Assembly: GCA_963377175.1 (NCBI GenBank)
Contig: CAUJNA010002112.1
Coordinates: 1,238,997-1,302,996, forward strand
Direction of reading: 5' to 3'
Source: Effrenium voratum
Lineage: Eukaryota; Sar; Dinophyceae; Suessiales; Symbiodiniaceae
Length of the DNA: 64,000 nucleotides
Shown here piece by piece: positions 37,926 to 60,690 of this stretch; position 1 is the stretch's first letter; each line of letters starts with the position of its first letter. The notes under the pieces are model-generated. The model did not search any database and was not told the DNA's origin. It saw nothing but the letters and a program-made list of their open reading frames with translations. Both the position numbers and the translations under genes were made by a program.

Positions 37926-38261
37926 CGGGGAAGGAAAAAAAACGTTAATTAACCCCTGAAGAGTCCTACCGAAAAATAATTGGGTAACCGAACTCGAAGA
38001 AGTATTGGTCAACTCGAGCTTCCAACTTAAAAATGGGCTGCCCGCAAAAACATCATAGTGTGTGTGTGTGTGTGTGTGAATTCCAACTTGTTGTTTTGGT
38101 ACATGACCTTTGGTGTCCTTTGGTAAATTTAAAGCAAGTGACCGGCAATCTGCAACTCCCGCGTTGTTGTTTTTGACCTCAGAAACAGAATTGCGGTTTT
38201 GGGCGAACACGAAGTAGCCCAGGGAATCAAAGAGGTACACGTGGTTCACGAAGTACCAAAA

Positions 38262-38591
38262 GAACCCAGTCCCAAAGCACAATGTAGAAGGTGCCGGTGA
38301 CCAGATTGTGGGAGTGACAGTTAATGAAGATCAAGTTTGGGGAGATTAGGAAATAGGTTGAGGAAGAGAAGTTTGTGTCCAAGCCCAGGATGATCACGCA
38401 GAGAACCTCCGCCCACCTCCCAGTGCCTAACCACAGCGACGCCAGGACCCTTTTCCCGACGGCGTAGCGGTCAGCCGCACTATGGCTGGCGCAACGAGAT
38501 TCCGTGACCCCCCTGACGGGAGGGCAAAACTTGAGCCAAACGGCCATTCGGCCGTTTTGCCACATGATGAAACAACACGTGAACAAAACAC
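38262..38591 (-). repeat. Left (3') terminal direct repeat, LTR-like
   Basis: Read on the minus strand it starts TGTGTTTTGTTCACGTGTTG and ends GGGACTGGGTTCTTT. The first 84 or so bases differ from the right copy at only about five positions, the last 110 at about a tenth, and the middle is clearly more diverged. It carries the palindrome AAACGGCCATTCGGCCGTTT (38538-38557) joined to TTTGGCTCAAG. No terminal CA or certain target duplication was found. Confidence 0.65.
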
Positions 38592-39228
38592 ACCCCCCTC
38601 ATCCGATATCTGGACGAGAGAAAGGATGCGAGACAGTTGAGTTCACGACGAAAGGGACCAACCAAAAATGCCGGTGTCAACTCAGAGGTGAGCCAAACGG
38701 CATCACCTGGGCCCCAGTTAAAATCCCGCCACCACCCCGAATTATCGGGGCGACAGGATTATTTGACGAGTGGACCACATGAGTGAACAAAGACATATTG
38801 GAGGAACCAGACGAAGATTCCTCTCGTGCCGTTCATGCGTTGTCATAGGACGACACCATGCGGAGGGGGACCCTATCTGGATCACCGCGCCTCACTGCAC
38901 GCCGTGGAGTGGTTGGAAGAGTAGTCGAGTTGGGAGGAAATTAGAAACGGAAGTTCCGAAATTGGTGTGAAAATATCCGGCTACGGCCGGCCCGGCACTT
39001 CTAGTGCGGTCACAGCCTCACACAGGATCGCCAGGGGAACCGTCTCCGGCGCGCACGGCAGCGGTGCGGGAGGGACACGAGCAACGCCGGATCAGCGGTA
39101 CAGGGCAATGGAGACCATCACCCCCAGCAGCGCCGCATAGGCGAGAGGAGGACCGGCGCGGTCGCGTTTTTCGGCGACACACGTACTATCCTCGCCCTTC
39201 TAAGGCGGATGCTGATTGCGGTACCCGC
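38592..39228 (-). other. 3' untranslated region of the giant element
   Basis: Between the ORF7 stop and the left terminal repeat. No ORF was recognised. It contains a second GCCGTTTGGCTCA phrase (about 38690-38702, minus strand), and ends in the purine tract GGATGAGGGGGG next to the repeat. Confidence 0.5.
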
Positions 39229-42200
39229 CTACCACCCTGAACCAGGTTCTTCCCGGTCCCTGGGCACGTCGTCTCTCCGGCGTCCACCACGGTCACCTCG
39301 ATCACCTCCTCCATCCCGACGGCGATCCTCACCACCACCCCTATTGTGGTCACCAGCCGGAGGTCGGCGAGGCGGAGGGCCGGTCCCGGTGGCGATCGCG
39401 ACGGTCATCACCCGGGTCATCACGTCCGCGGCGCTCATCTCGCCCCGGACCGCGCCTCTCGGAGGTCTCCTCATGACGTGGAGGAGGTCGGCGATCATCG
39501 CGTCGGCCTCCGCGGGTATCCCTGCCACGATCATCCCTTTGTCGGGGCGGGCCAGGATCCTCGCGTCCACCTTTGCCAGGTCGATGTTTTCCTCGACCCT
39601 TCCCCTCACCCTTAGGACCGCGACGATCCTCGCGGGCCCCAAGCGCGGTCCTCGACCGATCGTCATCTCGGCGGGGCCGCGACTCATTTGCCGCACGAGT
39701 GGTCCGAGGCACACCCGGGGGAAGCTCCCACTCGTCGTTGTCGTCATCGCGCGGGTCATAGCCGCCATGGCCGCCCAGGAACCGGTGGCACCCCGTGGTG
39801 GGGACGCAGGAGTTCCGGGACCGCCCGATCGAAGACGAACTCGGGGAGTCGCGTCCTCGCCGGTAAAAGGATCCTTCTGGGTGTAGAAACCCTTGGTCCT
39901 GCCCCTTCTCTCCCCACCTTCCACACCGCTTCTCGCGGGGACCGGGGATGGACGGGCAGGCTGGGCCATGCTCTTAGAGCTGGGTTGCCCGCTAGGCGGG
40001 ACCTGAACGCCCCCCTGCCCTTTTTCGGGCGCGGGGACCCGACCACGAGATGTCCTCCTGGCCTTGGGTTGGTCGGACTCACCCTCCAGCTCGGACTCGG
40101 TGTCAGGGACACGAGTATTGATGGCCATGTCCTCTTCCTCAAACGGATCCCCAGTCGTTGTAACGCCTGCCGCAATGGGAGCGGGAGGAGGAGGAGGAGG
40201 AGTTGGCACAGCATCGCCAGAACTGACGCCTGCATGCGACACCACGGGAGTCTCCGGTTCTACCGGGACAGGCGGCGCAGGAGGAGCCGGGGGCGGTGGC
40301 GGAGGGGGAGGGATCTCCTCCTCGTCGTCGCCCATGGGCTCGTCAAGGTCGTCAGGCTTCTCGTCATCTTCGTGCGAAGAACCATCCGATCCCAGCTCAT
40401 CCTCCGCTGATCCAGCAAAGTCGGGCTCGTCTTCGTCCTTCACGCCGGGGCCTGGTGTAAGGCGAATTCCGGGTCGATGGCGATCGCGGGGTCGGAAGCG
40501 GTATTTCCTTGGTACAGGGTCGGACAGCTCCTGTTTGATGTCATCCTGGGTTTGAGGACGGTCGGCCAAGCAGGTGTCGTAGGCAACGGTGGACGTCCGG
40601 TAGATCAGATCGTCCATACTGCTGAGGTCGTTGAGGGTGTAGACGTACCCCTTCTTAATGCCTTCCCGTATCGTGTCCATAGCCCGTTTGAGGCGCGCGG
40701 CAGGATCGAACCCGGCCTTTCTCCGCATGGCTTGCAATATCCCGCAGTGCTGTGCGAGCAGCCCCACCTGGAACTTGAACCCCTCCCCGGACACATCGTT
40801 GGGGAGTATCGGAGAAAGGTGTCCTGTTCTCAGCCCAATGATATGGGCCTCAAGAATGTAGTAGGACGTGTAAAAGCCGCACCGGTTGGCGTTGAAGTTT
40901 GCGGTGGTTAGGCGTCTGCCCCACTCAGCCGCGTATCCCTCATATTCTTCGAAGAATTCGGGGACGGAGCTCCCGTTGAAGGCAAGACCCCTTACCAAGA
41001 TCGCCTTTGCTACCCACTCTTCCACGTTGTGGTCGACCGTGTCACGGTATTTGCCGTCAAGGACTTCGTCTCGGAGCGAGTCGTGAAGTTTTCGGAAAAT
41101 GCCATCCACGTCCTCTTTGTCAAGGTACTTAGGAGGCCGCATCCCAGACATCAACAAGGACCGGGCATCGACGGCGGGACTCTGCGAGTAGAGGGCCATT
41201 CCGATGGCGTTGGCGTCTGCGTTGTTCCACAGAGCGGGGACGAAGCCCTCGTATTTTGCCAGCCAGGGAGGAATCACCCCGTCGGTGCTCGCTATCGTGC
41301 GAGGGCCGCCGTTCGTGTCTCCGGTGGGCAGGACGCCCTCATAGAAGATGGGAAGGTAGCAGGCGGTGCACAGGTGAGCGCCGACCGGGTGGGCCGTCAT
41401 GCACCTATGGCATGGAACGGACACCACCTCGCGGATATGTTCCGTCTTGGTGATCTGATGATACTTCTCCATCTCGTCCCGACACTTCCTCGGGTTATCA
41501 CTCACGGAGTTGAGGAAGTTGGGCGGATAGCACCAAGGCCTCAGGTAAATGATGGAGCAGTCCTCCTTGAAGTAGACGCATCTCCAGTACCCGATCGCGA
41601 TGTTCTCGCGCGATGCAAAGGTACCCTGACGAGTAATATGCATGCCCCCATTTTCCATGGAGAAGAAACGTGCATCGATAGCCATGACCACATATCGGGG
41701 ATCGCTCCTTTGGCGTCGACCCGAGGTGTGCAGCTCCGTCACATTGCTGTCGGTGATGCGGTCGACAGTGTCGTTGGGGCATTCTCCGTGATCGCGGAGG
41801 GATTGATATTCATCCGGCCGAGAGGGAAGGAGCTCGATCAGAGCTCGCCCACCCCGAATGATCGCCCCACGTTCTACGTAGAGCCGATACATTCGGAGAG
41901 GCACCACCTTGTAGAGTGTCTTGGGAACCACCTTGGAGGTGATAGGAAGACAAACAGGGCTCTCGTAGAGCATGTATTGGTATCGTTCACGAAATGCCCG
42001 GTAATCAGTGTCGGATCCGATCTCAAGCGACCTTACCGCCGCTATGCGGGCGGAACCAGGCAGCAACCGACGCTCCTTGTCACGAATGACGGTGATGATG
42101 ATCTCGAACATTCCCACCCCATCTTCGAGAAAGGAAGACAGGAGGTACGAAGAAAAGGCATCCTCAGACTCGACGCTGGTCCCGAAGTAGTGGCTCAGGA

Positions 42201-42948
42201 ACTTCTTCAGTTGTATCACCGAAGTAACGTTCCCTTGCCCGCTGGCAGACGAGGCCTCCAACTCTGGGTCCTTGACTGCACCTGCATTTCCAGGCTGCAC
42301 AGCTGTTCCACGGAGCGCGTCGCGTATTTCCGCGCATGCTCTCCTGTAGTAGTGCGAAGAGGCGCCCGTCCTACCCTTCACCTTCTGACGGATCTCGTCG
42401 GCGAAGTAGTCCAGAAGCTCCTCGGGTGCGGGAACAATGGCCTGGATCATCAGGTCAGGATCACTCCTGGTCGGGAGGATAGGCCCTGCTCTGGACACTC
42501 CCATCTCCAGGAATCGGGCAATGTCCCCGATTTTGGCGCACAGAGTAGTGATCGTGTTTCCGATCCTGGGGGCGATATCCTCGCCTCTCCTGGCGCCGAC
42601 CACGTTTTTCTTGATGGACTCCTCCTTCAGCCTCTCGAGGTTCCTCCGGGTGTCATCAGTGCCTTTCACCGCGCTGAGGCGGAGAACCGCAGGCTCCGGT
42701 TTGTCCGGTCGCACGAGCTGGCCGTCGGGAATCTGGTCGAAAATGCGCGAGGCGGACTTCACTGCTGGGACATTCCTGTACTGATCCGGCACGCTGTAAA
42801 AGGCGTAGGCGAGAGTGTCATGCGAGGATGTCTCCCAGTACGTGTACTCCTCGGAATCACGCGGGTCACCGACAACGCGACTCACGGTGCTCAGCTCGGC
42901 CAGAGCACGCTCCGCCTCGAACTGTGATCCGATGGTCGTGGGCAGCAT
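39229..42948 (-). CDS. ORF7 of giant element, unknown protein with acidic/proline-rich tail
   Basis: About 1239 residues from the ATG at 42948 (MLPTTIGSQFEAERA); the frame is open further upstream but there it overlaps ORF6 and looks non-coding. I do not recognise a family. The first 850 or so residues look globular, with a CxxC...CxxC cluster (PCHRCMTAHPVGAHLCTAC) about 40% into the protein that probably binds zinc. A very acidic, Ser-rich linker, long proline runs like a formin FH1 region and a basic tail follow. Near 39.78 kb the reading switches: the other frame continues with an Asp/Arg/Gly-rich sequence to about 39.36 kb, where the annotated frame again looks natural (NRGGGEDRRRDGGG). 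Two compensating indels are likely. Position after pol is where env-like genes sit, but nothing here shows an Env. Confidence 0.7.
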   Translation of the reverse strand: MLPTTIGSQFEAERALAELSTVSRVVGDPRDSEEYTYWETSSHDTLAYAFYSVPDQYRNVPAVKSASRIFDQIPDGQLVRPDKPEPAVLRLSAVKGTDDTRRNLERLKEESIKKNVVGARRGEDIAPRIGNTITTLCAKIGDIARFLEMGVSRAGPILPTRSDPDLMIQAIVPAPEELLDYFADEIRQKVKGRTGASSHYYRRACAEIRDALRGTAVQPGNAGAVKDPELEASSASGQGNVTSVIQLKKFLSHYFGTSVESEDAFSSYLLSSFLEDGVGMFEIIITVIRDKERRLLPGSARIAAVRSLEIGSDTDYRAFRERYQYMLYESPVCLPITSKVVPKTLYKVVPLRMYRLYVERGAIIRGGRALIELLPSRPDEYQSLRDHGECPNDTVDRITDSNVTELHTSGRRQRSDPRYVVMAIDARFFSMENGGMHITRQGTFASRENIAIGYWRCVYFKEDCSIIYLRPWCYPPNFLNSVSDNPRKCRDEMEKYHQITKTEHIREVVSVPCHRCMTAHPVGAHLCTACYLPIFYEGVLPTGDTNGGPRTIASTDGVIPPWLAKYEGFVPALWNNADANAIGMALYSQSPAVDARSLLMSGMRPPKYLDKEDVDGIFRKLHDSLRDEVLDGKYRDTVDHNVEEWVAKAILVRGLAFNGSSVPEFFEEYEGYAAEWGRRLTTANFNANRCGFYTSYYILEAHIIGLRTGHLSPILPNDVSGEGFKFQVGLLAQHCGILQAMRRKAGFDPAARLKRAMDTIREGIKKGYVYTLNDLSSMDDLIYRTSTVAYDTCLADRPQTQDDIKQELSDPVPRKYRFRPRDRHRPGIRLTPGPGVKDEDEPDFAGSAEDELGSDGSSHEDDEKPDDLDEPMGDDEEEIPPPPPPPPAPPAPPVPVEPETPVVSHAGVSSGDAVPTPPPPPPAPIAAGVTTTGDPFEEEDMAINTRVPDTESELEGESDQPKARRTSRGRVPAPEKGQGGVQVPPSGQPSSKSMAQPARPSPVPARSGVEGGERRGRTKGFYTQKDPFTGEDATPRVRLRSGGPGTPASPPRGATGSWAAMAAMTRAMTTTTSGSFPRVCLGPLVRQMSRGPAEMTIGRGPRLGPARIVAVLRVRGRVEENIDLAKVDARILARPDKGMIVAGIPAEADAMIADLLHVMRRPPRGAVRGEMSAADVMTRVMTVAIATGTGPPPRRPPAGDHNRGGGEDRRRDGGGDRGDRGGRRRDDVPRDREEPGSGW

Positions 42949-44173
42949 GGCCCCTCTCCTCCTCCGTGCAGTCGACGTATATGAACTGACCGGTATGCAG
43001 ATCTCTGGGCGCGGCGAAGGGCCCCGCAGTGTCATGAACGCCCAGCAGAGTGCTCCTCGCCTCGACCTGGCTAGGGAGCGCATCCGCAGGAGGATGGGCG
43101 GGCTCGGCAGGGGCGTCAGGGGCTTGAGTGGCAGGCGGAACAGGGTCGTCCTTCTTATGCTCAGAGGCCCCCGTGGCGGTTGTTCCCGCTGCCTCTCCTC
43201 CAGCCACCACCGGTTTGTCCCGGGGCTCATTCATGTCAACGTCCTCACCGGCATCGCGAGCTTCTTTCTCCGCCTTCTCCTTGGCCTCCTTGATCTCGCG
43301 TGCAGTAGGACGTCGATAAGCCGGCCAGGGGATGCCCATGATTTTGTCACCACGGGTGAAGGCGGACTCATCTCTGCGAATGATAACTGCCCGATCTTCA
43401 CGCGATCCAGACATGGCCAGAGGACCACACATGGACCGGAAGACCTGTGCGACCGATTGTGCCAGGCAGTCCGGGTACTCCCCTCTGAGCGCGGTGGTTC
43501 GCCATGTGTCAGGGATGTTCGGCTCCAGCTTGTTGCCACGATCGTCGACGCGATCGAGCTCACCAACGATCTGGTGAAATGGCAACGAACCAAGCCGGGT
43601 CTTGCGGTGAGCGGCGTGGAGGCAGTCATAGAATGTCCTAATCTTCTGCAACCCAGCCACAGCACCGGCCACGTGCGGGTGAACGTGCCCCATCCTCCAG
43701 GCGGTCGCCAAGGCCATATCAAGGCCGGCACGGACCGCGGAGAGCTGGGAGTTAAGGTCATAGGCGTTCATGTACTCTGCCGTCCAAAAGACGTCATCCA
43801 TGGGAATGACCTCGCCGTTCCTGGAATCGACCATTCCGAGTCGGGTCCCGTCGTGCACCATTGCATCGCACCGTGTCCTGTTCGGATACGAGTTGGAATT
43901 CCCAAGCGGCTGCTTGGCTTTTCCGAAGATGCCGGTGTGGTGGTCGCCGGATTCGCCCTTTCGGGTCACGAACTTGGAGTCGATCTGATCACGAATCTCC
44001 GGCGGGTACTCAGGGGGAACGATCGTTTCCATGACCTTTGTCCATTCGTCAGCCTCGGTTCTATCCGTGGCCTCCTTCCCGAAGTGGACATACTGGAGCT
44101 GCCTGGGGCCATGCACAGTGCATTTGTCTGCATATGCGTGGGCCCAGTCAACCAGCGTGGCGCGTTTGGCCAT
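42866..44173 (-). CDS. ORF6 of giant element, unknown protein
   Basis: 435 residues from ATG (MAKRATLVDWAHAYADK). It starts 39 bases after the ORF5 stop, in the -1 frame relative to ORF5; that frame is open well into ORF5, so frameshifted expression is also possible. The first 300 residues look globular (WRMGHVHPHVAGAVAGLQ and FRSMCGPLAMSGSRED are easy landmarks). Next come a charged KEAKEKAEKEARDAGED helix and a proline/alanine-rich linker. The last 27 or so residues look out of frame: the natural continuation is in the ORF7 frame, beginning at the ORF7 ATG 83 bases before the ORF6 stop. No family recognised. Confidence 0.7.
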   Translation of the reverse strand: MAKRATLVDWAHAYADKCTVHGPRQLQYVHFGKEATDRTEADEWTKVMETIVPPEYPPEIRDQIDSKFVTRKGESGDHHTGIFGKAKQPLGNSNSYPNRTRCDAMVHDGTRLGMVDSRNGEVIPMDDVFWTAEYMNAYDLNSQLSAVRAGLDMALATAWRMGHVHPHVAGAVAGLQKIRTFYDCLHAAHRKTRLGSLPFHQIVGELDRVDDRGNKLEPNIPDTWRTTALRGEYPDCLAQSVAQVFRSMCGPLAMSGSREDRAVIIRRDESAFTRGDKIMGIPWPAYRRPTAREIKEAKEKAEKEARDAGEDVDMNEPRDKPVVAGGEAAGTTATGASEHKKDDPVPPATQAPDAPAEPAHPPADALPSQVEARSTLLGVHDTAGPFAAPRDLHTGQFIYVDCTEEERGHAAHDHRITVRGGACSGRAEHRESRCR

Positions 44174-44211: not shown

Positions 44212-46890
44212 TCAGCGTCCTCGATTGATCACCCTCTCTTTAGTCACCTGGTCCGAGTTCCTCGCCTTGTTTGCGTAGCTGGCCACGATCGGCTCGAAAT
44301 TTTTCTCTCGAGCAGCGATGTGGTGAAGTACGAACCTGTCGGGCCGGGTGAACGCCTCGTCGAGGGAAATCGACCCTCTCTTCGGCTCCGTGTCGTCTCC
44401 ATAGTAGTTGGGATTCCGCTCATCGGGTTCCTCAAGTCCGCCGTGCACCGGATCCTTTGACTCCGTGGCGCTAGCTCGGACGACCCTGTGTCGGGACGAT
44501 CTCCGCTGAGCTTTCCATGCCTCAAGCGTCTGAAAGGTCTCCTGCGAGTCGGGATCATAATACTCGCCATCGGGGGTGATGGTGTATCCCTCAACGGAGA
44601 CCCCCGCGTCCCCGGTGGAGGTGCGGGCATCGGGGTCCACCTCATCGAACTCCGAGAGATCCTCCTTTGTCGGAGGTCCTCCCGATCCAGTGCTCCCCCC
44701 TACCTCCATTGAAGCAGCAGTGTGGGGATCGACGCCTGGTACGTCATCAGTCGTTTGATCAAGGGTCTTCATGAGGTCTTCGAAGCTCTCCACATCATTG
44801 CCTCTGATACCGACCGGTTTGGTCACCGGCGCTGCGGGCGGCCCACCTTCAGGGGTAGGAGTCGGGACAGTGGTGGGGGCGGCCGGTTCTACCGGCGTGC
44901 CACGCCAGTATGCTATCTCGGCGTCAACATCCATGTCGTCATCCTTCTCCTCGACGGTCGGGAGCGTGGGGACGCCCTTCCTTTCACTTCCCGCTGGCTT
45001 CTTCAGCTCCTCAGCCTTCTTTTTGGCCGCCGCCGCGGCCTTGCGAGATGCCTCAGGCGTCGCGAGGCGCGGGAAGTTGCTCTCGTCCTTCGGCGGAGTC
45101 AGCACAGACTTGGGCAATGGCCCCCCCCATCGGGGGGCCTTTGGCGGGTCGGCAGGCTCGGGAACCGGTGAACTTCCCCCGGAAGTGCGGATGTTTGGCG
45201 CCCGAGCGGGAGGTGCACCCTTGGTAGCCGTAGAGCCGGGATCCGGCGACTTAGCTGGCGTGCCGCCCTTTGCGGGCACGGAAGGGACAGGGGCCTTGGG
45301 GACACTCCTAATGTCGATGGGCCCCTTCGCCTTGGCGGGCGAGGCTTTCGGTGGCGAGACGGGGCGCGTCGGTGGCGACATCATCTTCGGCGTAGGGCCT
45401 TTGGGCTCGGCCTGGCGGGCAGGAGCCTTCGCCACAGAGGGAGCCGCCGCCTGTGCGGGGGGCGTCACCTTAGATGCCGCATCAGTCATCTCTACGTCAT
45501 GCGATTGACCAGAGCTTTCTGCCCCGGCGACCTTCGCTGGCGGGGCGGTGGAGTAGGTTAACGAATCATCCCAGACCTTGGTCTGGAGAATCTTTTCGGC
45601 CTTCACCTTCGCGTCCTCGTCGGGAGGATACATGGTCTTCTTGTACAACATGCCCAACGTTTTCGCAGCATTGGTCGCACTCATGACGCGGTGTAGCGTC
45701 CACGAGATGTCCACGGCCGCGCTGGCGAGAGCCGGGAGCGCTACCACAGCTCTGTACTTGTTCGCGGGGGCGCCGGAACTGCCGACACAGTGGTCGCCCC
45801 AGAAGGCGAAATCCGCAGGAACCACTATCAAGTTCCTCTTCATCGCTGCCCTGATGAACGTCGTGATGACGCCGAGCATGTGGGTATTTCGAGCGGGCTG
45901 AAGCCATGACGCAACCGAAATGAGGATCACCACATTCGATCCAGCTCTCCTCACGGACTCAAGCCTTTCCAGGGTGGTGTGGATGAGGGTTTGCGCGTTG
46001 CTCTTGATGACCGACACCTGCTTTTTCTCATCCCAATCGGCCAGGTCATGGAGACGGGTCGCAAAAATGCAGGTGTCATACTCCATGGCCCCCCTTCCAA
46101 CCGCTTTTTCGCGGTCATGAGTGAGCCGTGTGGCCTCTTCGACCATGGTGGCGATGGGGATGTGGTAACCGCTCTCCCCATACGGGCAGTGGAATTGGAT
46201 CTTCGGGATGGATCCCTTTCGTGGCCCGCTGTCAGTGGACCGGAGAGTGTCCAGTTGCGCACTGAACTCATCCGCCGTGATGTAAGAGCCCTTCTTGGTC
46301 TTCCCGCGCGACGCAAAGCAAAGGTCGTAGAAGACAAGCACCTGGGCATTGGCCTTAATCGTTGGCTCCTCCAAGTATGTGGGAGGCCCCCAACCCGCTG
46401 CCATCGCGGCGAGGATACCGGTGACTCCGGTAGTGCTCATAGGCAGGAGGCCCTTCAACACCGACGGTATAGTCGGGACATCAGAATCAATGCATGTGAG
46501 GGCGAATTCCGGGAACACGGTCAGGATGACGTTCCTGAACATTTGGTTTCCCCAACCTATCCACTCTTTTTCGAGGGCATTCTGGTCGTATGTAGTCAGA
46601 TGAGAGGTCTTAGGCCTGCTCAGGCTGGGGAGCACCTCACTCTCGGGGTTCGTGATCCACTCTTGTTTGTACTTCCCGATCATCTTGTCGATGTCAAGAA
46701 ACATAGTGGACGGCGCCAGATGCTCCTCCATGATGTAACCCGAATATTTCGGGTACTCATTTTCGAGCGCAAATGGGATCGACGATCCAGCCTCTTGCAC
46801 CTTCACAGCGTATGTGTTGCTGACGAGACGATGCCTGGCGAACTCCGGACTGAATCCACCAGTCTTCGTGGGGGTGCTAGGAGCAGCCAA
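44212..46890 (-). CDS. ORF5 of giant element, unknown protein (5' end broken)
   Basis: About 892 residues. The nominal start is not ATG: the first in-frame ATG is at 46731 (MEEHLAPSTMF). Upstream of 46890 the frame stays open and reads naturally (RAFFQPNAIGEIGATKREL) to about 46950. ORF4 and ORF5 are in the same frame, and the piece between them reads well in another frame, so they were probably one protein of about 1400 residues. Residues 150-420 alternate strands and helices (SNVVILISVASWL, RNLIVVPADFAFWGDH), suggesting an alpha/beta fold that I cannot name. After that come a long Pro/Ala/Lys linker (APSVAKAPARQAEPKGPTPK) and a charged C-terminal region. Confidence 0.7.
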   Translation of the reverse strand: MAAPSTPTKTGGFSPEFARHRLVSNTYAVKVQEAGSSIPFALENEYPKYSGYIMEEHLAPSTMFLDIDKMIGKYKQEWITNPESEVLPSLSRPKTSHLTTYDQNALEKEWIGWGNQMFRNVILTVFPEFALTCIDSDVPTIPSVLKGLLPMSTTGVTGILAAMAAGWGPPTYLEEPTIKANAQVLVFYDLCFASRGKTKKGSYITADEFSAQLDTLRSTDSGPRKGSIPKIQFHCPYGESGYHIPIATMVEEATRLTHDREKAVGRGAMEYDTCIFATRLHDLADWDEKKQVSVIKSNAQTLIHTTLERLESVRRAGSNVVILISVASWLQPARNTHMLGVITTFIRAAMKRNLIVVPADFAFWGDHCVGSSGAPANKYRAVVALPALASAAVDISWTLHRVMSATNAAKTLGMLYKKTMYPPDEDAKVKAEKILQTKVWDDSLTYSTAPPAKVAGAESSGQSHDVEMTDAASKVTPPAQAAAPSVAKAPARQAEPKGPTPKMMSPPTRPVSPPKASPAKAKGPIDIRSVPKAPVPSVPAKGGTPAKSPDPGSTATKGAPPARAPNIRTSGGSSPVPEPADPPKAPRWGGPLPKSVLTPPKDESNFPRLATPEASRKAAAAAKKKAEELKKPAGSERKGVPTLPTVEEKDDDMDVDAEIAYWRGTPVEPAAPTTVPTPTPEGGPPAAPVTKPVGIRGNDVESFEDLMKTLDQTTDDVPGVDPHTAASMEVGGSTGSGGPPTKEDLSEFDEVDPDARTSTGDAGVSVEGYTITPDGEYYDPDSQETFQTLEAWKAQRRSSRHRVVRASATESKDPVHGGLEEPDERNPNYYGDDTEPKRGSISLDEAFTRPDRFVLHHIAAREKNFEPIVASYANKARNSDQVTKERVINRGR

Positions 46891-51693: not shown

Positions 51694-54600
51694 ATGTGAT
51701 AGGAAAAAGTAGCGGATGCAGCGGGGGCACCTTTGTCGGTGCTACCGAATCCTTGCCCCCCTCTTCCGGTGGTATGCGGCTTCTGCACGCATATGATGGG
51801 CTCAAGAATAGAGACGCGTTCAAGGATGAGTTGCGCGATTTTGTCTCCCTTCTTGATGAGGAAGTCACTGCTTGAATGGTTGAAGATTACAACCTTGACC
51901 TCTCCGGTATAGTCCGGGTCAATGACACCGGCACCAATGTCAATCATGTGTTTGGCAGCAAGGCCAGAGCGGGGGGCTATTCTCCCGTAGACCCCTTCGG
52001 GGATGGTGATGGCTAAGCCAGTCCCGATGGTGGCTTTGTCGCCAGCGGGGACTATGTAATCATCGGCCGATTCAAGATCCAGACCAACGCTTTCAGGAGT
52101 CCCGCGATTCGGGATAGCGATCCCTTCCCGAAGAGGATGGATGTAGAGTGCATGGGGGTCTCTTTTCCATGCAGCGCGATTGTTGGGCTCGGCGACCGCG
52201 ACAGGAATCGTAGATCTCTCAGTCCTCCCTTTGTACCAGGATTTGATGATTGTCTGGCACATCTGCCTCGGATATAGGGCAGTGAGCGGAGTGAGGGACC
52301 CCTCAATCCTGGCGTTCGAGAACCCCTTTTCATGATGGCACGTTCGGCCTCCGAGCGCGGCGGCGAGGTCGGGAGAGTTCGTGGCGATTCTCCATTGCTT
52401 CCGGATGGGCGTCCCGTTCTTGTCCTTCATTCCGAAGTCGCATCCGTCAATATTGACAGTGAGGATCTCAGGATCGTCAAGAAACTTTCTCATGAAGGGT
52501 TGAGACCATCCAAGGCAATGACGTGGCCATTCATAGGCAATTCGTCCACCACCCTTCCGCACTTCACGAGAAACCCGTATGAAGGCCGCGAACATGACTT
52601 GGGACTGTCTCCGAGCGTCGTTAAGCTCGGCGGCGAATTCGGGTCCGTGCTGAGAAAGGTTGACATATTGCCAAGTACTCCAAGGTCCACAGGGAATAGA
52701 GGACCAAAGATCACATTTAGGATTCTTCCTAACGATCTCGAGTAGTCTCCTAACATCCTTGCTCTTAAGGATATCAAAGGAGTCCTTGTGCACGCGAATG
52801 GCATCTCCACCACATTCGAACATAGTGGCGGAAAGTGCGGAATCGGCTTCGCATGCAAATTCAATCAGGAGTGATTTATTTGAGGTGGCCGGCGCGCCAG
52901 GATGATCGTCGCCAGGTTTGGAGCGAGACTTCTCAACCTCAAGCTCCCTCTCAGTGCTGACATAGATCCTTCGCGCGGTGAGCGACATGGCTCGCCAATC
53001 ATCGGACGAGATGGAGTTGGGCTTCCCCGTCCCGGTGTAGGGACGTTCTTTGCGATTGGAGGACTGGGGGTAATCAATGTCCTCCTTACCCCCCGGCAGC
53101 ACATCTTCGCCGAGCGGCTTCTTGGTGGAGGGACGCCTCCTTTTGGGCGCGCAGCCCTTGTCGAAGAGGATAGTAACCCCGGTCCAGAACTTATGTGTTC
53201 TAACCCGATGGCCACTGGCATACACATCACGGGAGTCGCGATAGACCTCTTCTCTAGAGTCGAGGAAGTGGCAATGAGTGATCCTGACATCGTCGAGATC
53301 AGCTTGGATTGGCCCCCCTGAAGGCAGGGGACGGGTGTCGTCTCCAAAGAAGTCCTTTCTTGCCTTGACATGGTATCGATGCCAGGACTTTTCTTCTTCA
53401 AAGCGCACCCAGTAATCATCCCTTTTGTCAGGGGAAGATTCATCCGAGACGTGTCGATCTATGAGGTCAGTCTCTGGAACATTGTCAGAGTCAGCATTCT
53501 GTCGCCGATTTCGACGATCATCCTCATCGTCCCCATGGTCAAAGCGCCCCTCATCAAAGCTGAAGGACTCGTCTCCACGGGGCAGAATTTTTCCGCTGAG
53601 GTGATCAGGGTCTGATAGGCGATCATGCTTGTATGATGCAATTTCTCGGGTACGAGCCTCATATGCTTTTAGCAGAGGAAACACGAACGGCTCTTCAGCA
53701 TCGTGATAGATCTGTTTCACTTGGTGGATACTGGGTCGAACAACTCCAGCCTGAAAATGCTCGAGGTCGGCAACATAGTAGTCCCCCTTCCATTTCCCTC
53801 CAGGTTCGAATCGATAACCAAGGAAAACACCAGGTTTGGCAACAGGGGCGAACTTGGGAGCCTTATAGTGATCGTGTTCTTCGCCGGGGACAGCGGGAGC
53901 GATACTAGATTCTTCTTCATCGAAGTCAGCAAGGGGGTCGTAGTCGCAGTCGCGCAGAGCTTCCTCGATCTCCTCTGCTGACATGGGTTCATAGTCATCA
54001 TCAGAAAGGAGGGCATCTTCTCTGGAGGTTTCGCCCCATTTTTCGAGAGCGTGGATGTCGACCTGAAAATAGGTTTCGCCAATCCAATCTTGCGATTGAT
54101 CATCTCTGGGATCATTCAGGTTTCTCCACGTGGTTGACTGAACAGAGTCATTTTCACCGTTGAGATATTTAATGATAGTGAGAGTTTCGTCAGCGAGGAA
54201 CTCAATGTCGATTGGGCAGTTGGAGCCCCTTGGGTCGAAGAGTTTCTTTCTGGGTGTCCGGTGTATACGGATAACACACTCGTTCTCATCGTCTTTGCTC
54301 CAATAGTCATCGTCGGCAGGCTTATTTTGATCTTCGGGGGCGTTTTTGATCCCCCCCTTTTCAACTCGACGCGGCTTGGGGGCGACGGGGAAGAAATCAA
54401 CCAAGCATCCGAAGGGGAGAAGCTTGCCATTGAAAGGAAGGGGGGCGTGTCTTTTAGACCACGCGCTTCCACCTCCCCGATTCTCGATGTTCCTAGCGAC
54501 AGCAAAGTACTTTGTTGCGTAGGGCCACCATCGGGCTTCTAACCCGGCTTGGCGTAAAAGCACACGTGCGCCATGAAGGACTAATTTGACCTTGTTTTCA

Positions 54601-55904
54601 ATGATGCCGTTGGTCTTTGGCATCCCCGGGGTAGACCATTCATGTATCCAGCGCAGTTCTTTGCAAGCACTGACAAGTTCTTTGGCTTGATCAGTGTGCA
54701 TCATCTTGATGTCATTTTGAGGCCCTGCGAAGCGGTTGAAGGCATCAACGGTGTTAGCGTCAGAGCGGCTCATGACAGGCATGACATCAATCCACGAAGT
54801 GGCGAGATCATAGAAAACGATGGCGTCGGCTTCGCCGTTCATCCCCCTGTCACGTAGCCCTCGCAGAACCATCGTGTCGGCGGTGACTAGGTCGCCAAAG
54901 TCTTCAGCTCCATGACCAGCCGCGCCCTTCTTCCGGAACAGTCTAACATTCTCCATCTTGGCACGCTGGCAGTGCGAGCAAAAAGGGTTCTTGGGAAGAT
55001 GAGTCATCATATGGCGGAGAGTCAAGGCGTCAGCTCTCCAGTCTTCGGCGCTACGTAGAGGGCCGTGGCCTTCAAGTTCGACGGTTTCCTCAATTGGATC
55101 AGAGGCAGGAGGATCTGGATCGGGTGAACCAGAAAGGCCCTCGGGCACAGAGGGTATGTCCTTTGCTTCCCCTTGGATGACGTCCCCGGAAAGAGCAGAA
55201 GGAGCAGGAACAGCAGGGATGTCAGGGAAGTGATCGGTCACCGGAGAACTGAAGTTACAACGTGAGGCAGGCAAGTACGGCACGTTGTTCAACACGTCGA
55301 GCACTATTTCTTTGCCATTAGGTCCCTGAAGGACGGGTAGCTCACCCGCGGGCCAGGTGAATGTATAACCTTGCTCCATACAGCGTTTGCCGATTGAGAT
55401 GAGCGATGGCGTGTTCTGCATGACGTGGGCATCAATCACCTCGTCGATGTCCTGCATATCAGCAGAAATGCTTCCGAGGGTCGATGCCGTGCCGTTGGCG
55501 GTCTGCAGGGCATGGGTACGTCCGGTTTTCTTCACCAGACTCTGCTCACCGGCACTAAGTTCGTTTAGTCCAACAAGGTCGATTGGGCAGCCTGTATCAG
55601 CAAGCCATCGGATTGATCGTTCGTGCCCTGGAGCGGATGGAGTGGAGGACATGCGCGATGCTCTATACATCATGCGCCGTCGAATCGGTTTGGATTCGAG
55701 GTATTCGCCCTCCTGATCAATGGCGACCTGCTCCTGCATGGAGAGTGCACGGAGAATGGCCTTCTCACTTTGCCGCTCAATGGTGATCTTTGAAGCGTTC
55801 TTGAACTCCCCGGAATGAGTATATGATGGATTCCTGGATTTCTGTGAAACGTGAGAAATCTGCTTCATAAGGTTGTTATCGGAAACGACGATATATTCAA
55901 TCAT
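51531..55904 (-). CDS. pol: ORF2: protease, integrase, methyltransferase-like domain and dUTPase
   Basis: 1457 residues. The start ATG overlaps the ORF1 stop (ATGA), suggesting termination-reinitiation. A retropepsin-like site, WLADTG, lies at 101-105. The integrase zinc motif is H298, H302, C309, C312, with core D343, D405 and E436 (DDE). Residues about 660-780 keep the GVFLGYRFEPGG integrase C-terminal motif of copia elements. About 1010-1225 is a Rossmann-like domain with LIEFACEADSALS and SIPCGPWS; the latter resembles the PC motif of cytosine-C5 methyltransferases, but other motifs are weak. 1251-1392 is a full dUTPase: SVGLDLESAD, PRSGLA, GAGVIDPDYTGEV, KKGDKIAQLIL, GRGGQGFGS. The last 65 residues overlap ORF3 and may be untranslated if frameshifting occurs. 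Confidence 0.9.
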   Translation of the reverse strand: MIEYIVVSDNNLMKQISHVSQKSRNPSYTHSGEFKNASKITIERQSEKAILRALSMQEQVAIDQEGEYLESKPIRRRMMYRASRMSSTPSAPGHERSIRWLADTGCPIDLVGLNELSAGEQSLVKKTGRTHALQTANGTASTLGSISADMQDIDEVIDAHVMQNTPSLISIGKRCMEQGYTFTWPAGELPVLQGPNGKEIVLDVLNNVPYLPASRCNFSSPVTDHFPDIPAVPAPSALSGDVIQGEAKDIPSVPEGLSGSPDPDPPASDPIEETVELEGHGPLRSAEDWRADALTLRHMMTHLPKNPFCSHCQRAKMENVRLFRKKGAAGHGAEDFGDLVTADTMVLRGLRDRGMNGEADAIVFYDLATSWIDVMPVMSRSDANTVDAFNRFAGPQNDIKMMHTDQAKELVSACKELRWIHEWSTPGMPKTNGIIENKVKLVLHGARVLLRQAGLEARWWPYATKYFAVARNIENRGGGSAWSKRHAPLPFNGKLLPFGCLVDFFPVAPKPRRVEKGGIKNAPEDQNKPADDDYWSKDDENECVIRIHRTPRKKLFDPRGSNCPIDIEFLADETLTIIKYLNGENDSVQSTTWRNLNDPRDDQSQDWIGETYFQVDIHALEKWGETSREDALLSDDDYEPMSAEEIEEALRDCDYDPLADFDEEESSIAPAVPGEEHDHYKAPKFAPVAKPGVFLGYRFEPGGKWKGDYYVADLEHFQAGVVRPSIHQVKQIYHDAEEPFVFPLLKAYEARTREIASYKHDRLSDPDHLSGKILPRGDESFSFDEGRFDHGDDEDDRRNRRQNADSDNVPETDLIDRHVSDESSPDKRDDYWVRFEEEKSWHRYHVKARKDFFGDDTRPLPSGGPIQADLDDVRITHCHFLDSREEVYRDSRDVYASGHRVRTHKFWTGVTILFDKGCAPKRRRPSTKKPLGEDVLPGGKEDIDYPQSSNRKERPYTGTGKPNSISSDDWRAMSLTARRIYVSTERELEVEKSRSKPGDDHPGAPATSNKSLLIEFACEADSALSATMFECGGDAIRVHKDSFDILKSKDVRRLLEIVRKNPKCDLWSSIPCGPWSTWQYVNLSQHGPEFAAELNDARRQSQVMFAAFIRVSREVRKGGGRIAYEWPRHCLGWSQPFMRKFLDDPEILTVNIDGCDFGMKDKNGTPIRKQWRIATNSPDLAAALGGRTCHHEKGFSNARIEGSLTPLTALYPRQMCQTIIKSWYKGRTERSTIPVAVAEPNNRAAWKRDPHALYIHPLREGIAIPNRGTPESVGLDLESADDYIVPAGDKATIGTGLAITIPEGVYGRIAPRSGLAAKHMIDIGAGVIDPDYTGEVKVVIFNHSSSDFLIKKGDKIAQLILERVSILEPIICVQKPHTTGRGGQGFGSTDKGAPAASATFSYHICGPPPEAPSVLPCLVGPMGPVTVHFSGSLRSVPVSLALCLERRQSSIPRPSPP

Positions 55905-58900
55905 GGCGGAGTCATCCAGTCGTAATTTTGCACGTCTGGATTACGATCCCAGTGTTGCACGTCGGGCATCAAGCATGGTGAATGCCGAACTTGCTCAAAG
56001 AAAACGTGTTGAAGAACATGGTGATCAATCGGTGCGGTGATTCCGCCCAGGAGTCCTTCCCATTTGTCAAGGAATTTCTCAAGCTGGGGTTCGCCAGACC
56101 CGGCAGCCCTGCCGAGGGATAGGCGAAGAAGTTCATTCGTACGGATAGACTGGCTCCCGACTTCATCGGGACGAAGGTACTCAATGAGACAGAACAGAAT
56201 CTGGCGGCTTTTCAGCCTCGTCCCCCTTTTTACCTGAGCTTCTTCAGTCAGCCTGCTGATCTTGGCAACTATAGGTTTCGATGTGATGCACTTTCTCAGT
56301 GCACCGTTGAACCTATTGTCAAGGATCGGGTAGAGGCACTCCTCATCAAGTTCCTCTATTGCGCTGGCGTTCTCGACACTCATGACCCAAGACATGGCAT
56401 ATGGCGAGTCGTAGCTGAATGCATTGCTCACGATTTCTCTCGTGGAAATGATCCAGTCTCGCAACTCATGCGGTGCAGGCTCTTTTTCGAGCTCTATGTT
56501 GGCGCACTTGTTCGCCTCAGATGGCAACGAAGTTAGGGGCGGTCGAGTAGCCTGTCCAAAAATATGGGGGGGTAAAACGCCGTCTCTGCCAATGGATATG
56601 GCACAGAGAGAGCAACTCCCGGATGATGGCGGGCAACACGCGGCACACAGAGAAGTGCGGCATAACGAACAAGTTTGGAAGCATGGAGGCGTCCCGGGAA
56701 TGCTGGTCTTGACATTTATATTACATCGAGGGCAGACCCTCTCCTCAGCGGAGGATCGGCGAAGATCGGGAGCTCCAATACCGCCGACACCACTGACGCC
56801 ATGCACACCCTTACCGAGTCCTGGTGGAAGAGAGAAACCAGTCGAACCGCCAGAGTTATCCTGTGCTCCGTGGTGAGGCTGTGGATTCTGCTGATTTGTC
56901 ACAGCGGCGTCAGGTCCGTATCTCCCGCGAATGACTCCCTGAGATGTCCCATGCTCAGCCTGACCGGTGAAAATCCTCCCTGTAGGGGAACATCCGGGGT
57001 ACGTGTTTATAGTCCCCCTCGGAGCTGCTCGTCCGACCACGGGCGAAGACATTGACCTCGGTGGCATTGGCCCGGCAGCTCCGGCGTGGGAACAGAATCC
57101 GGAGTTCCCTTGATGCGGTTCAGGACTCCGATGTGATGGATCCCCACGTGATGGCCCGGATCCAGGATCAGGAGCAGCGCCACCACGCTGACTATGGTCA
57201 GGGATGAAATCAGGTCCTCCAGGCCCCGCGCTGGGACCGCGATGCTTAGTTTTCCCATCAGGATCAGCTCTCAGACAACCGAGGCAGATAGGCCGAACAT
57301 TCGACCCGAAACGACGCACATCGTCAGGTGAAGCGATGTGCTGATCGCAATACTCGTCCTTGCATATGAGACACCTCGCAAGCCCGTGTCTCCCCCCTCT
57401 CCCCCTGCATGCGCGGCACCTAGGGAATTGATCGCTGCATTTGAGACACGAGTTACAATCATGGTCAAAGCAGTCTTCACAGACTGACTTGCCGCAACTC
57501 CGGCATGGATAGCGAGGTTCGCGATGTTGTGGATGACCGGGCTCCTCATGAGCACACCTGGCCCGGTTATCAGGGGCAGCGCCGGCAGCCCGAGCAATGA
57601 ACCTCGTTCTAGAGGGATCCCTGCCGAAAATGGGGGCTGATGGTGATGGTGGGGGTGGCCCCGAAGGAGGCGGAGGTGGAGGAGGCCTCGCCGAGCTGAC
57701 TGTGCGGGCATCACGAGGAGGAGAACCTTTAGGAGTCCTTCCCTGGGTTAAGGGATCAGTGTCAGATTTCTCCCATGATCCCGTTCCGGCGGTCGAAACA
57801 GCGCCAGCACTCGAAGATCCGTAGGCAGCGGGAGGTTGTTCCTTCAATTCGGCGATCTGCATGTTGATCTCATTTACCCTCAGCACAAGCTTCATGAACT
57901 GCTCTTGCATGTCCCTCGGATTGGGGTCTAATCTCCTGTCATGAAGATCCTTGACACATTTAGCAACACGGCACAAGAGTTCTTCCTGCTTCTTTGAGTT
58001 CTCATTGAGGGCTCCAGACACCCTATCACTGAACTGCTTTAGGTCGGTCGCAGGAACGAGATGCTGGATATACGTCTCGACGTTCCCACGGATGGTTCTT
58101 TCCCTTGAGATGGTTCCTTCGATTTCGATGACACTGCGAGAGTTTGCCTCGACTTCGTCCTTGATTTTCCGAATCTCGGCCTCAAGGGCCCCGATCTCAG
58201 AGAATCTAAGGAGCTGGACCTTGACGTTCTCAAGTGATTCGGCCTGCTCTCGAAGTTCAGCAGCGGATATGACGACCGAGTCAGATCTCTCATCATACAT
58301 CTTGAAACGTTCATTCATCTCCTTTTCGCTTCGGGCGACCCACTCGTGGAAATCACGGAACTTGGCCTCGTGTTTTGAGAGAGTTCCGGCAACGGCAGAG
58401 AAAGATGATTCAACCTTCTTCTCGAAGTCGTCAACACGGTTATTGATCTTCTTGATCTCACCGATGCAAGCGTTGATATCATCCCTACATGATCGAATCT
58501 CAGTTCTGCATCCCTGGATTTCGGCCTTGCATCCCTTGACCTCGTTGTGGATCGCGAGAAGCAGTCGTTGAAGCTCAGATGCAACAGGATGGCCGCCACT
58601 CGTGGAAGCAGACGGAGCAGGACGACTATCAGCGTCATGATCTCCGCGCCTATTCTCTTCCCTGTCGGGAGTGCAGCCCGGAGTTCCGATTTGGAAGAAT
58701 GCGGGGACGAGGGAGTCGTTGACCGGCTGATTTGAAGGAAGCCCTCCATATCCAGGGGCAATAGTGCTAAGTCCAGGTCTTCGGTTCCTGGGCGTAGAGT
58801 TAATCCCGTCATCAGTCTCCTTCTCAGACATCGGGGCATTGGAGCTGAGCCCAGACCCCGCAGAGTGGATAGGAACGTCAATAGGGTCGTGATGAGCGGG

Positions 58901-60352
58901 GGGATTAGATCGCAATCGCAGAGCAGCTTCACGTCTCTCGGGTGACTCAGAGCTCCTCTTTGTAGCTCGTGAGTCAGTGCCGGTTTGTCCCGACACATTA
59001 TCAAATGATGATGATCCGCGAAGTTGAGCTTGATCTGGATCAGGTTGAGTGAGATCAAGCCGTTGAGCAACGTCACCATTGAGTGGCTTAGGGGAAAGAA
59101 CTTTGGCAACGCGGCTCGGCGGGAGCGATGTCGTTCGTCTCTCTGGTGTGACCTCGGCCTCATCGATTACATCAAGGATCCCAGGAATGGTTTCATCATC
59201 TTCATTTCCTCTCCTGGGTGGTTGATGGAAGGGAATGTCGAGGAGGTCGAAGGGAGTAGAGCCAACACCAGGTGTATCCTGCTCGGATCCATCGCTGGTA
59301 CGGTGGCTGGACTGCTCCTCGAGGTCGATGACGTCGGGGGCGGACTCTTTTCGAGTCTGACGCCGATTGAACGCAGCGAAGAGACCGGCATGGCTTCTTG
59401 ATGAAGTGGAGGAAGGATTTGGGCCTGCTGTTTCGCGGCCCGCGTCCGATCGGTTAGTACCTGATGTCCGATTTGGCGGATTTGAACCCGCGTTGTAGCG
59501 GTTCGCATCCCGACCTCGAGTACCTGAGGAAAGCGGTGGATTCGGACCAGCGTTGTAGCGGTCCTCATTCCGGTCGCGGGTACCTGACAGGTGAGATGAT
59601 ACTGCATCAGGGATGAAGTCCATATCCGCCGGACTGGGGTGATCGTGAATGATGTCAGTGTCGGATGAACCTGAGACGGGAGGAAGGCCAGCTATTTGCG
59701 GCCAATCCTCAATCGCCCGTTTGCCCACCTCGGGTTGGGCCGAACCTGCAACATGGGAAGGGGAGAAGTCCTCGATGGGGTCATTTTCACCATCATGAGG
59801 AAAACCCTGAGTAGGCTCATGCGTAGGCAGGGCATCAAAAGATCTGTCAATTTGGGAAGGCTGAGACCTCCAATCAGCATCAAAAAGGGATTGAAAATCC
59901 AGATTCCCAACCGAAACGGGGGCACCCGAGTTAAAGTCGAGCCGACCGAAATCAGGCGGTGTAGCCTGCGATCCACTGCCGAGGAGCTGGTCAAACTGAT
60001 CCCATGTAAGGGACCATGATTGAGCCGGCTCCGGATGAGCAGCACGATGGACAGCCCGGTCCTCGATCTGGAGCGCCACGAATGGAACAGTAGGCGAAAT
60101 CGACGAGGGCACCTGATTTGGAGGAACCTCAGCCTCTTCTAGAGGGGGCCCGTCCTCGATCTGAAGCACTGCTGCCGGGATAGGGGCCTCCGCATCCTCA
60201 TCAAACACGACCTGAGAAAGGATCCAATCGTCCGTGATCACCCCGGGATTGGGCTCTGCGCCCACCATCGGGGGAATAGGCCACAGCCGGCTGTCTAAGC
60301 CGGGGGCAGCAGGTGCGGCGTTGCCGCGAAGGGCGTTGGCCTCGTCGTCCAT
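55901..60352 (-). CDS. gag: ORF1: Gag-like protein with coiled coil and two Cys clusters
   Basis: About 1483 residues from the ATG at 60352 (MDDEANALRGNAAPA), which lies right at the inner edge of the terminal repeat; the frame also extends eight codons upstream from a TTG. The first 600 residues are low complexity, with NRYNAGPNPPLSSGTRGRD-like internal repeats. About 600-830 is a long coiled coil (IHNEVKGCKAEIQGCRTEI). About 950-1035 is a Cys/His cluster (YPCRSCGKSVCEDCFDHDC and more), and about 1205-1250 a second one (CPRCNINV...CSLCRTSLCAACC); both look like zinc-binding modules rather than the usual CCHC knuckle. The last 200 residues, helical, resemble a copia Gag core. Gag would form the particle. 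The length is far above the usual 300-500 residues for copia Gag. Confidence 0.8.
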   Translation of the reverse strand: MDDEANALRGNAAPAAPGLDSRLWPIPPMVGAEPNPGVITDDWILSQVVFDEDAEAPIPAAVLQIEDGPPLEEAEVPPNQVPSSISPTVPFVALQIEDRAVHRAAHPEPAQSWSLTWDQFDQLLGSGSQATPPDFGRLDFNSGAPVSVGNLDFQSLFDADWRSQPSQIDRSFDALPTHEPTQGFPHDGENDPIEDFSPSHVAGSAQPEVGKRAIEDWPQIAGLPPVSGSSDTDIIHDHPSPADMDFIPDAVSSHLSGTRDRNEDRYNAGPNPPLSSGTRGRDANRYNAGSNPPNRTSGTNRSDAGRETAGPNPSSTSSRSHAGLFAAFNRRQTRKESAPDVIDLEEQSSHRTSDGSEQDTPGVGSTPFDLLDIPFHQPPRRGNEDDETIPGILDVIDEAEVTPERRTTSLPPSRVAKVLSPKPLNGDVAQRLDLTQPDPDQAQLRGSSSFDNVSGQTGTDSRATKRSSESPERREAALRLRSNPPAHHDPIDVPIHSAGSGLSSNAPMSEKETDDGINSTPRNRRPGLSTIAPGYGGLPSNQPVNDSLVPAFFQIGTPGCTPDREENRRGDHDADSRPAPSASTSGGHPVASELQRLLLAIHNEVKGCKAEIQGCRTEIRSCRDDINACIGEIKKINNRVDDFEKKVESSFSAVAGTLSKHEAKFRDFHEWVARSEKEMNERFKMYDERSDSVVISAAELREQAESLENVKVQLLRFSEIGALEAEIRKIKDEVEANSRSVIEIEGTISRERTIRGNVETYIQHLVPATDLKQFSDRVSGALNENSKKQEELLCRVAKCVKDLHDRRLDPNPRDMQEQFMKLVLRVNEINMQIAELKEQPPAAYGSSSAGAVSTAGTGSWEKSDTDPLTQGRTPKGSPPRDARTVSSARPPPPPPPSGPPPPSPSAPIFGRDPSRTRFIARAAGAAPDNRARCAHEEPGHPQHREPRYPCRSCGKSVCEDCFDHDCNSCLKCSDQFPRCRACRGRGGRHGLARCLICKDEYCDQHIASPDDVRRFGSNVRPICLGCLRADPDGKTKHRGPSAGPGGPDFIPDHSQRGGAAPDPGSGPSRGDPSHRSPEPHQGNSGFCSHAGAAGPMPPRSMSSPVVGRAAPRGTINTYPGCSPTGRIFTGQAEHGTSQGVIRGRYGPDAAVTNQQNPQPHHGAQDNSGGSTGFSLPPGLGKGVHGVSGVGGIGAPDLRRSSAEERVCPRCNINVKTSIPGTPPCFQTCSLCRTSLCAACCPPSSGSCSLCAISIGRDGVLPPHIFGQATRPPLTSLPSEANKCANIELEKEPAPHELRDWIISTREIVSNAFSYDSPYAMSWVMSVENASAIEELDEECLYPILDNRFNGALRKCITSKPIVAKISRLTEEAQVKRGTRLKSRQILFCLIEYLRPDEVGSQSIRTNELLRLSLGRAAGSGEPQLEKFLDKWEGLLGGITAPIDHHVLQHVFFEQVRHSPCLMPDVQHWDRNPDVQNYDWMTPP

Positions 60353-60690
60353 AAAGAACCCAGTCCCAACGCACAATGGTGAAGTTGCTGATGACCAGGT
60401 TGAGGGAGTGACAGCTGAAGAAGATCAAGTTTGGGAGGGTTGGAAAACAGGTTACAACAGAAATTGAAGTTCAGAACCAGGCCCAGGAAGTCCTCGACGA
60501 CCAGCCACCCACCACCTAACACCAGCCGCGGCAGCACCAGGACCTTTTCCCGATGGTGACGCAAGCCGCCGTGCTATGGCGGATGCACGCAAATCCGAGA
60601 GACCCCTGACGGGAGGTTTAAACTTGAGCCAAACGGCCATTCGGCCGTTTTGCCATATGAAGAAACAACACGTGAACAAAACACACAAAG
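60353..60690 (-). repeat. Right (5') terminal direct repeat, LTR-like
   Basis: Partner of 38262-38591, same orientation. On the minus strand it begins TGTGTTTTGTTCACGTG, carries the palindrome at 60631-60650 joined to TTTGGCTCAAG, and ends GGGACTGGGTTCTTT right before the ORF1 ATG. TGG follows the repeat end, as in many tRNA primer-binding sites, but the match to a tRNA could not be tested. Confidence 0.65.

Follow-up and report, generated by a model that had tools for sequence, protein, structure and literature searches.

The window analysed here, a 64,000-nucleotide stretch of Effrenium voratum contig CAUJNA010002112.1 (positions 1,238,997 to 1,302,996 of the forward strand), carries on its minus strand an element of ~22.5 kb flanked by terminal repeats. 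A sequence-only reading had described it as a giant Ty1/copia-type element with seven open reading frames (ORFs). The size, the terminal repeats and the shared strand were all borne out, and the reverse transcriptase (RT) is of the RVT_2 type in relatives. The seven ORFs are not separate genes: comparison with fuller copies resolves them into three genes in pieces, namely gag, pol (two pieces) and a third gene, ORF C, whose four pieces match one frame of 3,107 amino acids (aa). We conclude with good confidence, as to both identity and anatomy, that the element in the window is a damaged member of a multi-copy family of Ty1/copia-type long terminal repeat (LTR) retrotransposons, fuller copies of which are ~23.7 kb long and encode gag, pol and ORF C. 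The features of the window copy, in the order of transcription, are as follows.

60349..60685, minus strand: 5' LTR, 337 bp, inner end missing (comparison with fuller copies)
60623..60633, minus strand: spliced-leader-like TTTGGCTCAAG in the 5' LTR (match to the leader)
55901..60376, minus strand: gag (comparison with fuller copies)
51531..55904, minus strand: first piece of pol, with protease motif, integrase, DNA methyltransferase (DNMT)-like domain and dUTPase (profiles, motifs and a structural model)
55587..55598, minus strand: DTGC, which we take to be the protease active-site motif
54654..54833, minus strand: integrase core (rve), 17.8 bits against a Pfam cut-off of 32.6
52170..52907, minus strand: predicted DNMT-like domain, extent as modelled, with PCGPWS at 52677-52694 and EWP at 52524-52532
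51738..52121, minus strand: dUTPase (PF00692), 131.5 bits against a cut-off of 22
49237..51693, minus strand: second piece of pol, with reverse transcriptase and RNase H motif (profile and motifs)
50815..51117, minus strand: RVT_2 stretch, with YVDD at 50926-50937 (Pfam and motif)
50200..50217, minus strand: DADLAG, presumably of RNase H (by motif only)
47077..48615, minus strand: ORF C fragment, residues 2-461 of the 3,107-aa frame of copy L031 (this and the next three by match to that natural frame)
44212..46890, minus strand: ORF C fragment, residues 545-1425
42866..44173, minus strand: ORF C fragment, residues 1446-1852
39229..43230, minus strand: ORF C fragment, residues 1853-2914
41359..41412, minus strand: zinc-ribbon-like CxxC-x10-CxxC of ORF C (motif, common to the sister family described below)
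38192..38592, minus strand: 3' LTR, first letters TGTGTTTTG, last letters CAAAACCGCA (comparison with fuller copies)
38530..38540, minus strand: spliced-leader-like TTTGGCTCAAG in the 3' LTR (match to the leader)

Further copies were sought, as had been proposed, in the window's own genome (G000; 1.156 Gb in 3,699 contigs), for which the match tables for the RT, the ORF5 part of ORF C and the C-terminal part of ORF C hold best hits only. The RT query gave 55 scored copies of 5,797 candidates at 96–100% identity, the whole query being matched in 7 (window included) and only residues 1-787 in 48; the pol frame was exactly 2,470 aa in 19 of the 55. With the ORF5 part, 51 matches were scored of 17,525 candidates, the frame length being exactly 3,162 aa for 13 of them, and with the C-terminal part 55 of 45,642, of which 11 lay in frames of 3,162 aa and 6 in frames of 3,107 aa. 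Because identical frame lengths recur (2,470 aa in 19/55 and 3,162 aa in 13/51), the arrangement of pol and ORF C is more than chance. An ORF C match lies downstream on the same strand for 35 of the 55 scored RT copies, the window copy included, at 2.35–2.55 kb from RT to the ORF5 part in 30 copies and at 7.65–7.75 kb from RT to the C-terminal part in 18. The other 20 RT copies fall outside the 51 and 55 ORF C matches; since these are best hits only, this is no evidence that ORF C is absent from them.

An LTR query (40 matches scored of 472 candidates) yielded 15 same-strand pairs, of which 8 span 23.5–24.3 kb and 7 are longer (27.9–48.8 kb), the latter being read as copies with insertions. 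Six fuller copies were fetched and both of their ends were fixed. All six have the order LTR-gag-pol-ORF C-LTR and measure 23.6–23.9 kb from LTR end to LTR end, and the two LTRs within each copy are 99.5–100% identical. Exact 5-bp target duplications, read by eye from the flank sequences, border five of the six (GGATA, GGTTT, AAAAG, AAATG and CAAGG), and a 4-bp AACC borders the sixth. The combination of TG...CA LTR ends with a 5-bp target duplication that marks Ty1/copia elements is thus present in the fetched copies, exactly in five of six, and the window copy has no such duplication. Pol is exactly 2,470 aa in five of the six and 2,534 aa in the other, and ORF C is exactly 3,162 aa in four. 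Two observations weigh against the conclusion drawn above: (i) gag is a single frame in only two of the fetched copies (1,707 and 1,718 aa) and split in the other four, and (ii) no primer transfer RNA (tRNA) was found by a pattern search with the complement of GGTTATCAGCC, the sequence directly after the 5' LTR, which gave 6 matches against 1 in a reversed control. A tRNA with a GAU anticodon, considered as primer, was unsupported by this search. Three single-protein queries of a viral contig collection returned no relatives, in a type of search that picks up close relatives only.

The claim that ORF4–ORF7 belong with gag-pol therefore stands: in place of gag-pol copies ending after RNase H, we found the linkage in 35/55 scored RT copies, in 6/6 fetched copies from LTR to LTR, and likewise in a sister family. 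It could be argued that gag-pol and ORF4–ORF7 are separate things joined by chance, whether in a composite element, by nested insertion or through faulty assembly, given that the window copy has LTRs unlike each other and lacks a target duplication and that G+C is higher over 38–46 kb. The near-constant distance between RT and ORF C among the linked copies, the presence of LTRs at both ends of six copies and the matching gene order of the sister family leave this explanation a practically negligible probability.

The peculiarities of the window copy can instead be described as damage. Its terminal repeats, 38256-38593 and 60349-60686, align at 75–77%, and its LTRs are mutually 77% identical. 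The span first given, 38261..60690, was right in being bounded by terminal repeats but needs correction: judged from the fuller copies, the 3' LTR, preceded by the purine tract GGATGAGGGGGG, reaches ~38192, and the 5' LTR is incomplete, lacking ~64 bp of its inner end, with the leader also missing. Set against another copy, the window copy has gaps: ~1.03 kb is missing where gag meets pol, ~80 bases behind pol and ~200 bases from the inner end of the 5' LTR. Three pieces missing from the window copy were also considered as introns, a reading that was rejected, their borders being without GT-AG. The body of the window copy is mostly 94–99% identical to young copies. Because its 5' LTR is incomplete, its LTRs are only 77% identical and a target duplication is absent from its flanks, the window copy is atypical of its family; we infer a mosaic origin, and the damaged copy does not serve as type specimen.

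The gag frame of the window gives weak coiled-coil-type Pfam matches only, and its last part is 36% identical to two proteins of Symbiodinium sp. CCMP2592. A CCCH zinc finger lies near the end of gag in a fuller copy, above the Pfam cut-off (27.5 vs 20.5 bits); this end, seen in the two fuller single-frame copies, is missing from the window gag.

Both window pieces of pol fall in one frame in the fuller copies. The integrase lies early in pol and the RT and RNase H motifs follow the dUTPase, so that the order integrase before RT, noted from the window at the outset, also holds within a single frame. The RT is assigned to the RVT_2 type from its relatives: all four of those scanned match PF07727 (best E 8e-9), and there is a weak BLASTP match to one RVT_2 protein, P0026 (E 1e-5). 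On the other side, the window copy falls under the Pfam cut-offs for both rve and RVT_2 (20.1 vs 31.6 bits for the latter), and RVT_2 is under the cut-off in a fuller copy too. An IS481 transposase model also matches residues 332-466 of the integrase-bearing piece, at 21.5 bits against a cut-off of 224. The dUTPase matches TIGR00576 above cut-off as well as PF00692, and contains RIAPRSGL and GQGFGST, which we assume to be its catalytic motifs.

Between integrase and dUTPase, pol is predicted to carry a cytosine-methyltransferase-like domain, modelled as a methyltransferase fold with the catalytic Pro-Cys and Glu in place. Two results argue against this assignment: PF00145 gave no match to the domain in listings at E up to 1 and 0.1, and a Foldseek search with the model returned a best E of 0.02, with none below 0.001. 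A protein search with pol gave 14 relatives among 7,992 scored. Two of these, P0020 and P0021, seem to retain the dUTPase in degenerate form and to be without the DNMT-like domain (by alignment in P0020, by eye in P0021). P0023 has an insert of its own with GPPCRTRS, and a stretch resembling 2-oxoglutarate oxygenases was seen by eye in P0023 and P0024.

Pol lies in the -1 frame relative to gag, with a 10-base overlap, and in 6/6 copies the gag stop is immediately preceded by GGGTTTC; in-register heptamers of this kind number three in 1,705 gag positions. From this arrangement Pol is predicted to be made by -1 frameshifting, a prediction against which it counts that no unusually stable RNA fold was found 3' of the heptamer (z 0.16).

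ORF C, more than 3,000 aa long, matched no protein family searched and is kept by selection. Over six pairs, formed by the four copies with both frames whole, the uncorrected ratio of nonsynonymous to synonymous change (pN/pS) is 0.08–0.13 for pol and 0.105–0.155 for ORF C. In the comparison with the 3,107-aa subfamily, 439 changes in ORF C are silent and 212 replace an amino acid (pN/pS 0.15). The ratio is lowest (0.04–0.06) at residues 301-600, 1501-1800 and 2101-2400 and highest (0.30–0.37) at residues 1201-1500 and 2701-3000. The low pN/pS and the excess of silent changes therefore identify ORF C as a maintained protein gene.

The sister family in the same genome, to which one of the 14 pol relatives belongs (52% identical; 30 copies scored), bears on its age. 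In the one copy read, an ORF C homologue of 26–28% identity, split in two frames, follows pol, with E-values of 4e-60, 6e-52 and 1e-31 for three stretches. Of 47 scored matches to the C-terminal part of the sister ORF C, 11 fall within a single frame that is exactly 2,979 aa long, and this part lies downstream of 10 of the 30 scored pol matches. Since ORF C stands behind pol in both families, it was most likely present before they parted; to judge from these sequences, it is most likely older than the split and not a recent capture. The genome also contains a third pol family, with frames up to 2,426 aa, on contigs C668, C3300, C1139, C3211, C3445, C2998 and C3275.

For the role of ORF C we rely on composition, because structure prediction for part of its N-terminus failed (predicted local distance difference test score 31) and a profile search matched only a designed repeat protein (E 0.005). 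That ORF C is a soluble nucleic-acid-binding particle protein seems to us an evenly balanced proposition. Family-1 ORF C has an arginine-rich basic tail, and hydropathy gave no clear membrane span in two family-1 copies and one sister copy. The failed model and the profile result weigh against the proposition, as does the sister tail, which is net positive but not arginine-rich. Pfam returned no credible match (a single line, DUF5610, E 0.29, below cut-off), NCBIfam none and PDB none that was credible. Protein searches with parts of ORF C gave 3 and 5 matches, all close relatives at 78–95% identity (7,992 and 7,993 candidates scored, among which distant relatives may be missed). An SGNH/GDSL-type nature of the middle of ORF C, weighed by eye, was not taken up.

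In retroviruses env sits behind pol, the position that ORF C occupies, and an envelope-like ORF C would turn the element into something like a retrovirus, capable of leaving the cell. We consider this very improbable: a membrane-spanning glycoprotein after pol was not recognized, ORF C being free of strongly hydrophobic segments as judged by hydropathy alone; its 3,162 aa contain just 6 N-glycosylation sequons; and no credible family or structure match supports it. The main rival to the particle protein is that ORF C targets the host, as an effector or by countering silencing, its first part perhaps being an enzyme. Both families share HG[LT]SQxSLW...G[IV]WTS...ALGY, which to us recalls ADP-ribosyltransferases, the modelled part being 34% identical between them, and residues 301-600 have a low pN/pS (0.06). 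With no profile matching ORF C and its single fold test failed, we think this unlikely, even though the extra domains of the giant Burro elements are thought to act on host pathways (PMC6431247; published sources are cited, here and below, for the portions of their text available to us). The nucleic-acid-binding protein is therefore the role carried forward below.

The LTRs contain a second unexpected feature, a match to the end of the spliced leader, for which we used the leader and relic sequences given in PMC12014239. In the family-1 LTR, TTTGGCTCAAG ends at position 63. The last 12 nt of the leader match with 1 edit, equalled in 0/4,000 random 402-mers outside LTRs, and the last 15 nt with 2 edits (0/4,000 random stretches outside LTRs, 2/2,000 LTR shuffles); the full 21-nt leader needs 5 edits, a weaker match equalled by 13/4,000 random stretches. 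The lengths of 21, 15 and 12 nt were picked after the match was seen. In the sister 3' LTR, whose start was inferred from TGTG behind a purine tract, the last 12 nt occur exactly, at position 73 (within 1 edit in 0/3,000 random 402-mers), and the last 15 nt need 3 edits, which is ordinary (93/3,000). In our reading, the leader end may mark the RNA start or the strand-transfer repeat. It is also quite possible, if somewhat short of an even chance, that trans-splicing has nothing to do with the stretch, which would then be a TTTT box of promoter type or a chance likeness: the full leader and the last 15 nt are matched by random or shuffled sequence at the rates just given, and the available part of PMC12014239 proposes a promoter role, as a TTTT box, for the leader. 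The 12-nt end speaks against this, being present in both families within an edit and in none of the 4,000 and 3,000 random stretches. Between pol and ORF C, the best spliced-leader site in family 1 is no better than chance, with 5 edits against a null centred on 5, and that in the sister family has 3 edits over 800 bases (without a length-matched null).

Taken together, these features suggest how the element may replicate. The LTR would drive a full-length RNA, on which the leader end, if it is one, would mark the start or the strand-transfer repeat. Pol would arise when ribosomes slip into the -1 frame at GGGTTTC, immediately ahead of the gag stop. Gag and Pol would then assemble into a particle, copy the RNA into cDNA and insert this into the genome in the manner of copia elements. 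The dUTPase could keep uracil out of the long cDNA, and the putative DNMT-like domain could have as its substrate either the cDNA of the element itself or the DNA of the host. ORF C might have an RNA of its own, possibly trans-spliced, and its product, as a soluble particle protein that binds nucleic acid, would likely help to package the RNA and cDNA, which are unusually long, or to protect them. A bolder reading, which we hold to be less likely than not, would be a giant dinoflagellate copia lineage that has become virus-like in gene content, with methyltransferase and dUTPase in pol, an ancient 3,000-residue protein of a new kind, and a spliced leader in the LTR that would make host trans-splicing part of replication. 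With this leader end present in the LTRs of both families, whether LTR retrotransposition is tied to trans-splicing can be tested directly.

The remainder of the window is rich in repeats. A 103-bp unit is repeated in tandem about four times at 36192-36629, 1.6 kb past the 3' LTR. A tandem array at 11372-14008, crossed by long minus-strand ORFs, has a 196-bp unit (99% match, ~9 plus 4 copies) built of a 39-bp repeat, and further arrays with AGTCTTCC-rich units and periods of 114–302 bp occupy 22311-24409. A dispersed repeat of ~100 bp, ~80–90% identical and on the same strand throughout, occurs at 5186-5300, 6971-7084, 9492-9578, 15938-16058, 34631-34736 and 34840-34942.

With Ty1/copia elements (Pseudoviridae) the present element shares TG...CA LTRs, 5-bp duplications, gag, the order protease-integrase-RT-RNase H and an RVT_2-type RT. 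It differs in being ~4 times the usual copia length, in the dUTPase and predicted DNMT-like domain in pol, in the CCCH finger of gag and in the separate third frame of ~3,100 aa. The family shows that copia-type elements longer than 23 kb exist and that a third gene in such an element, with more than 3,000 codons, can be selected about as strongly as pol. No description of such an element was present among the literature matches listed, a coverage that mostly leaves aside subscription papers and preprints, or in the available parts of PMC7245778, PMC3229502 and PMC9998398. Heat-activated Ty1-copia elements of Symbiodinium microadriaticum are cited in PMC11453091. The giant elements treated in PMC6431247 are Burro (gypsy-like), Ogre, Cyclops and foamy-like endogenous retroviruses, and the word copia is absent from the main text of that review as available. 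Burro and Ogre resemble the present element in great size and very large polyproteins, and Burro, with an internal region of up to 25 kb, also has a dUTPase-like domain; Burro differs in being gypsy-like, with its extra domains inside one ORF1 polyprotein, and Ogre in owing its length mainly to its LTRs, its internal region being 11–13 kb (PMC6431247). LTR elements of bdelloid rotifers likewise encode a dUTPase within pol and have a further ORF behind it, but their ORF3 encodes an esterase, an exonuclease, an env-like protein or a small membrane or coiled-coil protein, and no giant frame like ORF C is seen in the available text (PMC5408684).

Within the dinoflagellates, SymbioLINE-Dnmt and SymbioDIRS-Dnmt3 of Symbiodinium are also retroelements with a cytosine methyltransferase, but they are LINE and DIRS elements with PF00145 domains (PMC5890265), a profile that does not match the present domain. 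The same source, in its available part, gives the LTR Copia superfamily of Symbiodinium as without any DNMT domain, a claim that would be qualified if the predicted DNMT-like fold is right. The dUTPases of Symbiodinium clade C are expanded, largely intronless and in some cases joined to RVT domains, as here, and differ in having been reported as a gene-family expansion (PMC6001144); elements of the present kind could be the source of such dUTPase-RT genes in a Symbiodinium genome.

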